Of a stretch of 64,000 nt of DNA, positions 29,781 to 50,930 are shown piece after piece; position 1 is the first letter of the stretch, and each line of letters starts with the position of its first letter. Location: assembly GCF_000970205.1 (NCBI RefSeq), contig NZ_CP009512.1, forward strand, positions 930,001-994,000, written 5' to 3'. A program made the position numbers and the translations under genes. The notes beneath the pieces were generated by a model. That model was not told the DNA's origin. It saw nothing but the letters and a program-made list of their open reading frames with translations, and made no database searches. This DNA comes from Methanosarcina mazei S-6 (GTDB taxonomy: Archaea; Halobacteriota; Methanosarcinia; Methanosarcinales; Methanosarcinaceae).

Positions 29781-29889
29781 CCAGCATTTTCATAAAGATT
29801 CTATCATTTTCTTAAAGAGTTTATCATTTTCTTAAAGAATTTATCATTTTCTTAAAGAATTTATCATTTTCTTAAAGAATTCATCATTT
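29781..29889. repeat. 20-bp tandem repeat upstream of the NACHT-HEAT gene
   Basis: Five units of exactly 20 bp (29781-29880), the last three almost identical (TTATCATTTTCTTAAAGAAT), with a partial sixth unit to 29889. The outermost unit towards the gene is degenerate. The array begins 7 bp upstream of the NACHT gene start codon, so it forms the leader or promoter of that gene. A 20-bp period puts each unit on nearly the same face of the helix. Confidence 0.9.
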
Positions 29890-36495: not shown

Positions 36496-36534
36496 TCCGG
36501 AATTCTTTTATATCTATTTATCATTTATATTCAT

Positions 36535-36637
36535 AACAAATCTTTCAAATATTAATGACAGATCTTTCAGACATCTGTAACAGATCTTTCAAATATTAAT
36601 GACAGATCTTTCAGACATCTGTAACAGATCTTTCAAG
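36535..36637. repeat. 44-bp tandem repeat between isf and pta
   Basis: Two full units with period 44 (starting 36535 and 36579) and a partial third (36623-36637), nearly identical, containing AGATCTTTC and ACATCTGT words. It lies in the divergent region: 40 bp upstream of the Isf start (minus) and about 200 bp upstream of pta (plus). Position suggests a regulatory role, but none can be shown. Confidence 0.85.
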
Positions 36638-36829: not shown

Positions 36830-37831
<1,002 letters not shown>

Positions 37832-37934: not shown

Positions 37935-39161
37935 ATGAAAGTACTGGTTATAAACGCAGGGAGTTCTTCTCTCAAATATCAATTAATTGATATGACAAAT
38001 GAGTCCGCTCTTGCAATAGGGCTCTGTGAGAGAATAGGTATCGATAACTCTATTATCACCCAGAAGAGGTTTGACGGCAAAAAGCTGGAAAAACAGACCG
38101 ATCTTCCCAACCACAAGATCGCACTCGAAGAAGTTGTCAAGGCTCTCACAGATTCTGAATTCGGTGTTATAAAGAGCATGGACGAGATCAATGCTGTCGG
38201 GCACAGAGTTGTGCACGGTGGGGAAAAATTCAATTCCTCGGCTTTGATCAATGAAGGCGTAGAACAAGCAATCAAGGACTGCTTCGAACTGGCACCTCTT
38301 CATAACCCTCCAAACATGATGGGAATTTCTTCCTGTCAGGAAATTATGCCTGGGGTCCCGATGGTTGCTGTCTTTGATACGGCATTCCACCATACAATCC
38401 CGCCATATGCTTACATGTATGCTCTGCCGTATGAACTGTACGAAAAGTACGGGATCAGAAAATATGGTTTCCACGGCACCTCTCACTTCTATGTTGCCAA
38501 GAGGGCTGCCGCTATGCTCGGAAAACCCGAACAGGATGTCAAGGTAATCACCTGCCACCTTGGTAACGGCTCAAGCATTACAGCTGTTAAAGGCGGAAAA
38601 TCCATTGAAACTACTATGGGCTTTACCCCTCTTGAGGGAGTTGCAATGGGAACCAGGTGCGGTTCTATTGACCCCGCAGTTGTCCCCTTCATCATGGAAA
38701 AGGAAGGACTGTCAACCAGAGAGATTGATACCCTTATGAACAAGAAGTCGGGTGTGCTTGGGGTTTCCAGTCTGAGCAACGACTTCAGAGATCTTGACGA
38801 AGCAGCTTCCAAAGGCAACCAGAAAGCCGAACTTGCCCTTGAGATCTTCGCATATAAGATCAAGAAAGTCATAGGTGAGTATATAGCCGTTCTCAATGGT
38901 GTAGACGCAATAGTCTTTACCGCAGGTATCGGAGAAAACAGCGCAAGCATCAGAAAGAGAATCCTTGCTGACCTTGACGGAATTGGCATCAAGATCGACG
39001 AAGAGAAGAACAAGATCAGAGGCCAGGAAATCGACATCAGCACTCCGGATGCAACAGTCAGGGTCCTTGTTATCCCAACCAATGAAGAACTGACCATTGC
39101 AAGGGACACAAAGGAAATCTGTGAAACCGAAGTAAAGCTGAGAAGCTCAGTGCCTATCTGA
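37935..39161 (+). CDS. ackA: Acetate kinase
   Basis: 408 residues from ATG 37935, the known length in Methanosarcina; an in-frame upstream TTG at 37917 would add a non-conserved extension. It makes acetyl phosphate from acetate and ATP. ASKHA-fold motifs: [17 protein letters not shown] (phosphate 1), [30 protein letters not shown]-like [12 protein letters not shown], and [10 protein letters not shown]. The active-site Asp appears in [11 protein letters not shown] and the Arg in [10 protein letters not shown]. Followed by a strong terminator. Confidence 0.97.
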
Positions 39162-39162
39162 T

Positions 39163-39199
39163 GGTAAAGGAACCTTTCCTTTGCCTTTTATTATCTTTT
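39163..39199 (+). terminator. Terminator of pta-ackA
   Basis: A 10-bp stem GGTAAAGGAA/TTCCTTTGCC (39163-39172 and 39176-39185, one G-T pair) with a 3-nt loop, followed by TTTTATTATCTTTTT. It begins just after the ackA stop. Confidence 0.75.
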
Positions 39200-39202
39200 T
39201 TA

Positions 39203-39491
39203 CCCCGAATTGCGGCTCGGGAGTACGCTGTCCTTCCCGAATTGCGGCTCGGGAGTACGCTGTCCTTCCCGAATTGCGCATCGGGAGTACGCTGTCCTTC
39301 CCGAATTGCGCATCGGGAGTACGCTGTCCTTCCCGAATTGCGGCTCGGGAGTACGCTGTCCTTCCCGAATTGCGGCTCGGGAGTACGCTGTCCTTCCCGA
39401 ATTGCGCATCGGGAGTACGCTGTCCTTCCCGAATTGCGGCTCGGGAGTACGCTGTCCTTCCCGAATTGCGCATCGGGAGTACGCTGTCCTT
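39203..39491. repeat. 32-bp tandem hairpin repeat, nine units
   Basis: Nine units with an exact 32-bp period start at 39203 and every 32 bp after. Each carries CCCGAATTGC[GGC/GCA]TCGGG, whose ends CCCGA/TCGGG can pair, then AGTACGCTGTCCTT. Two unit types differ at two or three central bases (GGCT and GCAT) in the order G G C C G G C G C. All reading frames stay open through it, which makes spurious ORFs on both strands. There are no unique spacers, so this is not CRISPR. It lies between ackA and the ATP-grasp gene. Confidence 0.95.
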
Positions 39492-39734
39492 TTCACTCGC
39501 TCCGCTCGCTCAAGAGGACTAATTTTTGGTTTTCCAAGCAAGTTTCACTTGAAAGGACTGATTTATAAGTTATAGCAGTGACTTTGCTCAGGAAACTATA
39601 TTCTGATTTTTCGAAGTAAAACTCACTCCAGAGGATTAAAGTAAACTTTTTTCAATTTGAAGTTAAGACCTCACAATTTTTAACTTATTAATGAAATTAA
39701 TTATCTTAAAGAATAACTGTTCTGAGGGCGTCAT

Positions 39735-40487
39735 ATGAGTATGAAGCAGGTAGATCCAGCCTTTACGGTATCCGGTTCAGATAAAGCTCTGGCGGATGAA
39801 ATTTTCAAAGCTGCACTGGATGTTCAGCGGCGAACACCGGGCCTTGAGTCTTTAGGCATTCTGGAAGCGTATGGTATTCCAGTGGTGAAAACTGTGTTTG
39901 CAAAAACTGAAGAGGAAGCCGTGAAAGCTGCTGAGGAGATAGGTTATCCTCTGGTGATGAAGGTTGTTTCTCCGCAGATATCACATAAATCGGATGTTGG
40001 AGGGATCAGGCTTTCTCTGCAAAGTGGAGATGAGGTGAGGGCAGCTTATCTGGGGATGATGGAAAAGATTCCTGAAAAAAGGCCGGATGCGGTTCTTGAA
40101 GGAGTACAGATACAGAAAATGCTCTCAGGGGGAAATGAAGTAATTATAGGGATGATCCGCGACCCGACATTCGGGCCTATGTTAATGTTCGGGCTTGGCG
40201 GGGTTTACGTGGAAATCCTCAAGGATGTGAGGTTTGCCATTGCCCCTGTGAATGAAAAGGAAGCCAGGGAGATGATTACAGGGATCAAAGCCTATCCTCT
40301 TCTTGCCGGAGCGCGGGGTGCAAAGCCTTCGGATATTGACGCTCTGGTGGATGCCATCTTAAGAATCTCAAGGCTTGTCTGTGATTTTCCGGAAATTGAG
40401 GAGTTTGAGATTAATCCTATGATGGTTTTGGAAGAAGGGAAGGGAGCTTTTGCAGTGGACATGAGGCTTACATTGAAGAAAAATTAA
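39735..40487 (+). CDS. Acyl-CoA synthetase (ADP-forming) beta subunit, ATP-grasp
   Basis: 250 residues. An ATP-grasp_5 domain like the beta subunit of ADP-forming acetyl-CoA synthetase: [37 protein letters not shown] (with the His-containing loop), [46 protein letters not shown]. The catalytic CoA-binding alpha subunit is not encoded in this window, so it is either a separate gene elsewhere or absent. Placed beside pta-ackA, it may link acyl-CoA and ATP, but this is inference. The gap before it holds the 32-bp repeats. Confidence 0.88.
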
Positions 40488-44656: not shown

Positions 44657-44799
44657 CTCTTACCCCCCGGTATTGTAAAATAATTCTTATTTATGTGACA
44701 TAATTATAAAGCAAATCTAGATAATTATAGCGGGATCGCTTTATTTATATTTTATGAGGAATAACGCCTTTTCAGTTCCATTTTTCTTCTTTCTATTTT

Positions 44800-45071
44800 T
44801 TTCTCCTTTTCAATTATTTTTCTTCTTTACTATTATTTTTCTTCCCTTCTATTATTTTTCTTCTTTACTATTATTTTTCTTCTTTACTATTATTTTTCTT
44901 CTTTACTATTATTTTTCTTCTTTACTATTATTTTTCTTCTTTACTATTATTTTTCTTCTTTACTATTATTTTTCTTCTTTACTATTATTTTTCTTCTTTA
45001 CTATTATTTTTCTTCTTTACTATTATTTTTCTTCTTTACTATTATTTTTCTTCCCTTCTATTATTTTTCTT
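44800..45071. repeat. 19-bp tandem repeat, about 14 units
   Basis: An array of a pyrimidine-rich 19-bp unit (TTACTATTATTTTTCTTCT) with exact period, starting near 44800; units in the middle are identical, those at the ends vary. It lies between the small Hsp20 gene and the uracil-DNA glycosylase gene and reaches the latter's stop codon. A long frame through it (44754-45137) is only low-complexity Phe/Ile/Leu and is not called. Confidence 0.93.
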
Positions 45072-47925: not shown

Positions 47926-48392
47926 AGAAAAGTTCTGAAAGAGATATCCTGATTTTTTACTAAATCTGATTTTTTACTAAATCTGATTTTTTTACTGAAT
48001 CTGATTTTTTTACTGAATCTGATTTTTTTACTGAATCCTGACTTTTTGAATATTTTTTTGAGAATCTGGAGTTATCTCTACGGGATCTTGAATACTTTTA
48101 GAAATCTGGATATTACAATTCAAATGTAGAGTGATCTTTTTGAGAACCTGCAGGCTCGGAGAGCCAGGACTTCTGGACAGTCTGTTTACAGTTTCTCAAA
48201 AAGATTTTTTAGGCAGAGGTGACTTTTAGTTTTTCAGGCTAATTTCAGGAAATGGCAGCTCTGAATTTAATCCGTTTTATTGGTGGTTTGTTTGTCTGTT
48301 TGAATAATTTACCAGACTCTCATCATTCATTTTGAATCGTTCATTTTTAATCGTTAATTTTGAATCATTCATTTTGAATCATTTATTCTGAA
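47926..48392. other. Intergenic region with two short tandem repeats
   Basis: About 470 bp between two convergent genes. At 47948-48045 a CTGATTTTTT(T)ACT[A/G]AAT word of 17-19 bp repeats about five times. At about 48325-48405 a TTTTGAATCATTCA word of about 14 bp repeats about six times, reaching the Hsp20 stop. No gene is seen between. Confidence 0.7.
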
Positions 48393-50624: not shown

Positions 50625-50930
50625 TCCTTCACTCCCTGCTTTTTCCTTTTTCATCTCCCCTTTTTAACTCTCCCCTTTTCTTTTTCCTCTTCTTTTCTCC
50701 CTTTTCTTTTCTCTTCCCTTTTTCTTTTTCCTCTTCTTTTCTCCCTTTCCTCTTCTCTTCTCTTCTCTTCCCTTTTTCTTTTTCCTCTTCTTTTCTTCCT
50801 TTCCTTTCCTTTCCTCTTCTCTTCTCTACTCTTTTTCTCATTCCTCTTTCTTTTTCTCTATTCTCTTTCCTTTTTCTCATTCCTCTTTCTTTTTCTCTTT
50901 TCCCTTCTCTTTAGCGCCAAATTTCCCAAT
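50625..50930. repeat. 300-bp pyrimidine/purine strand-biased tract
   Basis: On the plus strand nearly every base is C or T from about 50631 to 50915, built of irregular CTTTTC, TCCTCTT and TTCTTTTTC words. Such tracts can form triplex (H-DNA). It lies between the acidic hypothetical gene and the acetyltransferase gene, both on the minus strand. The frames through it (for example 50629-50880 minus, 50286-50939 plus) are low complexity and not called. Confidence 0.85.

Follow-up and report, generated by a model that had tools for sequence, protein, structure and literature searches.

The nine-unit tandem array behind ackA of Methanosarcina mazei S-6 is the multiplied left half of a dispersed intergenic element

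The nine 32-bp units that follow the acetate kinase gene ackA of Methanosarcina mazei S-6 are the multiplied left half of a dispersed intergenic element, and not a feature of ackA. They lie in a stretch of 64,000 nucleotides (contig NZ_CP009512.1, positions 930,001 to 994,000, forward strand), called the window, to which coordinates refer unless stated otherwise. It is nearly certain that the array arose from this dispersed family by tandem expansion in place; that it is the expansion of a REP/BIME-like interspersed element under concerted evolution is judged moderately probable, the REP-like working of the family being the uncertain step of the explanation. The local array thereby becomes part of a dispersed family in a well-studied group of methanogens, whose copies share sites between species, and these shared sites make the concerted evolution of interspersed repeats, as well as the search for a fold-recognising factor, directly testable.

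The array and its surroundings

The features of the region are collected in Table 1. The first-pass annotation described an exact 32-bp period repeated nine times and two unit types arranged as G G C C G G C G C, and both descriptions hold: the units are perfect and abut, and the types differ at two loop positions (GGCT in type G, GCAT in type C). The start that it gave, 39203, is one base too early. TRF reports on the window a period of 32 with 9.0 copies and a score of 520, and the unit pattern (at most three mismatches) has 9 matches in the window and none in 100 shuffles of it. As was also proposed, the CCCGA/TCGGG arms enable every unit to form a hairpin, HP1, which in a single unit folded as RNA has 5 bp, an 8-nt loop and an energy of about -7.5 kcal/mol. 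In the minimum-energy RNA fold of the tandem array, pairing between units dominates rather than nine separate hairpins (-140.1 kcal/mol, z -3.97). The array does stand directly after the ackA terminator, seen as a terminator-like hairpin with a T-tract. What had been missed is that the last unit is continued by another hairpin, HP4, with an AT-rich tail after it, and the whole feature extends from 39204 to about 39648; similarity to the flanks of relatives resumes at about 39638-39677.

Table 1. Features around the array behind ackA, in window coordinates.
Feature	Position	Strand	Basis
pta, just upstream of ackA	36830-37831		Pfam PF01515
ackA, acetate kinase	37935..39161	+	Pfam PF00871, E 1.8e-159
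ackA terminator-like hairpin (GGTAAAGGAA / TTTCCTTTGCC) and T-tract	39163..39201	+	read from sequence
Nine 32-bp units, each HP1, spacer and left arm of HP4	39204..39491	+	
HP1 (CCCGA/TCGGG) of last unit	39460..39477	+	
Putative pseudoknot helix: HP1 loop bases able to pair with spacer bases	39468-39470 with 39482-39484	+	covariation
HP4 (GTCCTTTT/AAGAGGAC) joined to last unit	39486..39519	+	model search, covariation
AT-rich tail, degenerate units of ~40 bp beginning near AAGAGGACTAATTT	39520..39648, right end approximate	+	
Next gene, ATP-grasp domain protein	39735..40487	+	Pfam PF13549, E 3.5e-85

The unit has no stop codons, so that on either strand several reading frames run through the array (ORFs of 108-135 aa, window 39147-39575), and gene finders may therefore call false proteins there. 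A coding role was considered and set aside, as periods found elsewhere (such as 32, 37 and 133 bp) are not multiples of three.

A dispersed element of the Methanosarcinaceae

The unit pattern, again with at most three mismatches, has 26 matches in the genome (one contig, 4,142,816 bp). In the copies elsewhere the unit is followed by the rest of HP4 and then by an AT-rich tail with a recurring AAGAGGACTAATTT, just as in the last unit of the array; the element thus consists, in order, of HP1, a spacer, HP4 and the tail. A covariance model built from twelve aligned copies, in which no helices but HP1 and HP4 were specified, gives 58 matches in this genome at E<=0.01. Manual merging leaves 41 places, of which 21 are on the + strand and 20 on the - strand. 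Besides ackA, therefore, the element is present at 40 places, in answer to the suggestion that the genome be searched for more of the unit. According to a rough ORF call the places lie mostly between genes. A strand bias suggested by the first pattern search (25 forward, 1 reverse) was dismissed in view of the merged places. In the 20 nt left of the 41 copies the mean T content is 0.39 and that of A 0.23, an uncontrolled comparison.

The family-wide model search (E<=1e-4) gives matches in 45 of 111 Methanosarcinaceae genomes: in all 30 genomes of Methanosarcina and in 15 of the 81 others. Three other genera have the element in every sampled genome (1/1, 2/2 and 4/4), and in two further genera some of the genomes give a small number of weak matches; none of 15 genomes from outside the family has a match. 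Element counts per genome are among the best 46 candidates scored in the 111-genome survey, and among the best 131 in the survey with the 15 outgroup genomes. Absence of the unit from related genomes, which would have argued against a conserved role, is thus not what is seen: the whole genus carries the element, though not this array. A search with a fragment of the unit gave 15 stretches, 12 of them from Methanosarcina or Methanosarcinaceae; the other three (Streptomyces, Oligoflexia, Persicitalea) contain a chance 18-mer without the unit and were left out. One query against each of the plasmid and phage collections gave no match. No Rfam family matches above its gathering score anywhere in the window, and six loci with longer copies match only rRNA at E<=1. 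In the open-access literature of PubMed Central that was searched, no account of such a repeat in Methanosarcina was found.

Some copies are longer. Those at L119, L114, L165, L156 and L202 contain two extra hairpins between HP1 and HP4, of the types CAGGAAATC..GATTTTCTG and GTTGCAC..GTGCAAC, and when read from the sequences the arms of both also seem to change together. The copy at L165 lies behind the 23S and 5S rRNA genes (C1:1353664-1357769 of this genome). A regular expression for long copies returned mostly false composites and served for sequence inspection only.

The element is not oriented with respect to genes. The left gene points towards it at 22 of 41 places in this genome and at 8 of 20 in two relatives, or 30 of 61 together, not counting four places of the two relatives with no called gene on one side. 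This random orientation is evidence against a general role in 3' untranslated regions.

The region behind ackA across the genus

Matches to ackA were found in 28 of the 30 genus genomes, at 30 loci altogether. By the covariance model, the element is present behind ackA in five of the 28 (this genome, G005, G007, G003 and G002), a count in which a few draft genomes have little or no sequence after the gene. In G002 the element follows a second acetate kinase gene. That genome (L112 / L139) has a pair of consecutive acetate kinase genes, with 93% and 76% identity to AckA of the window, and carries the element behind the first gene of the pair and none behind the second. A terminator-like hairpin, by contrast, can be read from the sequences after ackA in most genomes of the genus. 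The array is therefore not part of the general ackA signal.

These observations bear on the proposal that the array is an RNA-stabilising 3' element. Its place directly behind the gene and its stable fold agree with an mRNA element specific to ackA; but such an element would be absent from most genomes of the genus, the conserved terminator-like signal precedes the array, the unit occurs at the 40 other places of this genome, and the orientation of the family to genes is random. The comparison does not support the proposal, which is considered highly improbable. The array probably has no specific role for ackA, and it should not be read as an ackA regulator.

Between this genome and G005 the left flanks of the ackA-site element match as far as its start, so that both copies probably derive from one old insertion. 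Regions without the element have about 100-180 bp of other sequence in its stead, and comparison of ackA regions with and without the element reveals no clean target duplication. Tandem arrays of period 5 or more are found in 16 of 27 regions behind ackA; the idea that this region is a hot spot for arrays was abandoned, since within the window 11 of the 19 intergenic stretches that measure 250 bp or more also contain one, which sets the background. In other species, unrelated arrays follow the ackA terminator at L113, L115, L120, L129, L133 and L134, with units of 12, 6, 17, 15, 15 and 13 bp, respectively. Further arrays between genes of the window, at 29785-29889, 36527-36636, 44780-45071, 47949-48047 and 50639-50911, have AT-rich or pyrimidine-rich units, the largest being 19 bp x 15.5.

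Covariation and the single-strand fold

Two alignments fitted to HP1 and HP4 were analysed for covariation. Their source sets comprise 84 and 65 sources, with most overlapping loci of one place omitted. In the alignment from two relatives (109 distinct rows) 97.4% of the cells in 16 pairs are standard and 10 pairs have changed on both sides; in the alignment of this genome and others (85 distinct rows) the values are 96.8% and 12 pairs. None of 500 shuffles, which ignore the kinship of the copies, reaches any of five whole-structure measures in either alignment. When the partners are slid by 1 to 3 columns, pairing falls to 27.8-59.4% (109 rows) and 35.3-55.6% (85 rows).

A scan of all pairs among positions 1-32, for which 67 of 215 rows are distinct and ungapped, ranks pair 9-25 first, although this pair is absent from the model. 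Its two positions lie in the loop of HP1 and in the spacer that precedes HP4, so that it crosses HP1, and in the two-relative alignment it occurs as CG (36), GC (31), UA (25), AU (2) and other combinations (6). The three-pair loop-spacer helix to which it belongs has 95.3% standard cells, and none of 500 shuffles is as high on three of the measures. On the remaining two, 185 and 456 of 500 shuffles are as high, because only one pair varies much. Some high-ranking pairs of the scan are not complementary, so subfamily structure adds to the signal. HP1, HP4 and the crossing loop-spacer helix all covary. Judged from the alignments, the last implies a pseudoknot with HP1, or else an alternative fold or switch.

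In HP4 the pair of positions 32 and 55 is a nearly invariant U.G on the + strand, in 104 of 106 and 79 of 79 cells. Apart from this pair, G.U and A.C cells number 30 to 20 and 14 to 14 in the two alignments, counts that favour neither RNA nor single-stranded DNA.

Same sites in other species and joint switching

For at least 20 of the 41 places, comparison of flanks shows that another of the sampled species has the element at the corresponding site, a lower bound because for G013 and G001 part of the matches were compared. At shared sites 32 pairs agree in orientation and one pair is opposed. At 13 of 20 shared sites pair 9-25 has switched to another Watson-Crick pair; over 30 comparisons it is switched in 19, the same in 9 and mismatched in 2, but G018 and the ERenArc genome, both compared at one site, are probably the same genome, in which case 19 of 30 becomes 18 of 29. 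In this count this genome contributes a single pair for each site, rows gapped at the pair or with another hairpin aligned to HP1 were dropped, and where a species had several units a later row could stand in for a mismatched one; these choices favour pairing. Likewise, pair 28-59 is C-G in 32 of 60 rows of the relative G001 and in 1 of 56 rows of this genome. The aligned sequences thus indicate that the copies undergo concerted change in which pairing is kept. Archaea of this group are described as polyploid, which makes gene conversion a natural cause of such change, although a similar picture would arise if new copies took the place of old ones.

The tens of intergenic copies, many of them at the same place across species, might also serve as duplex DNA targets of a protein with a chromosome-organising or regulatory role, and the species-wide shift at pair 28-59 looks as if the sites follow a protein. 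A duplex site does not, however, call for covariation between loop and spacer, and the copies are divided almost evenly between the strands with no orderly layout seen, so that this explanation is improbable. The array itself, as had been proposed, is a possible protein-binding site.

The alternative of a structured RNA family, either free-standing or within untranslated regions, with the ackA array as a multiplied part of one copy, fits the covarying stems and crossing helix, the nearly invariant U.G on the + strand and the retention at the same sites in the same orientation. It is nonetheless rather unlikely: the orientation to genes is unbiased, no Rfam family matched, and the G.U and A.C cells show no lean to RNA. 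Against the preferred reading of a REP/BIME-like interspersed element, retention at the same sites across species could also mean a cellular function.

Comparison with known repeat systems

The 58 matches at 41 places constitute many short palindromic intergenic copies, as in REP/BIME, and the family resembles the REP/BIME/REPIN elements with RAYT (TnpA-REP) in being short, palindromic, intergenic and present in tens of copies. It shares with REP/BIME the occurrence in clusters, tandem reiteration and a mosaic structure. The section of PMC8266576 on E. coli REP describes mismatches that form a bulge in the hairpin; the nearly invariant U.G is a comparable conserved departure from perfect pairing. 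The passages of PMC3733652 and PMC6006769 that were consulted do not mention Methanosarcina.

There are also differences. Inspected by eye, the aligned consensus has no GTAG at the foot of either hairpin, though diverged feet are possible, and no link to Y1 genes was noticed. Among the Y1 and TnpB genes searched no mobiliser was found: over 24 genomes the number of elements and that of Y1_Tnp genes are uncorrelated (Spearman -0.005), and the 17 Y1/TnpB loci of this genome have no convincing element within 1.5 kb, the best reaching 10.6 bits. G012, with at least 38 elements, and G023, in which elements are present, have no Y1 match. A link to Y1/IS605 was accordingly rejected for lack of number correlation and of flanking copies and for the presence of elements in genomes without Y1. 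The relative G042 has 79 Y1_Tnp matches, far above the other genomes. Furthermore, the Methanosarcina element has the covarying crossing helix between loop and spacer, which distinguishes it from REP/RAYT, and it belongs to an archaeal family with direct tandems rather than the alternating orientation of REP/BIME. Because neither a Y1 gene flanked by copies nor a GTAG foot was found, the element is not filed as a member of REP/BIME.

Like a MITE the element is small, non-coding and dispersed. As apparent differences, terminal inverted repeats or target duplications were not noticed, and no parent insertion sequence was identified among the Y1 and TnpB loci; the repetition of half units on the left and of tail units on the right makes the ends of the element fuzzy. 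To CRISPR the array bears the likeness of direct repeats of ~32 bp with a palindromic part. The units abut without spacers, and the unit is dispersed over the genome, which agrees with the earlier statement that the array is not CRISPR.

Tentatively, the family may represent an undescribed class of archaeal interspersed element, in which the selected unit would be a pseudoknotted single strand, either RNA or single-stranded DNA, with a putative co-evolving factor. Such a factor is suggested because copies at the same site exchanged their pairing letters jointly, species by species.

Local expansion

In the proposed mechanism, the left module of one copy of the dispersed non-coding Methanosarcinaceae element expanded in tandem behind ackA. 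The element would act like an interspersed repeat of the REP/BIME type, its folded single strand (HP1 with the loop-spacer pseudoknot, then HP4) being recognised by a putative protein, while gene conversion or replacement between copies would keep these alike within a species. Hairpin-provoked slippage or unequal recombination could then multiply parts of a copy in place and yield the nine 32-bp units. The slippage and block duplication put forward on the pattern of the two unit types gain support from the amplification of the same module with other periods elsewhere: tandem periods in this genome are 32, 37, 39 and 133 bp, and those in two relatives are about 67 to 121 bp. The arrays seen are direct tandems, and HP1 half units of 14-16 bp lie to the left of many copies.
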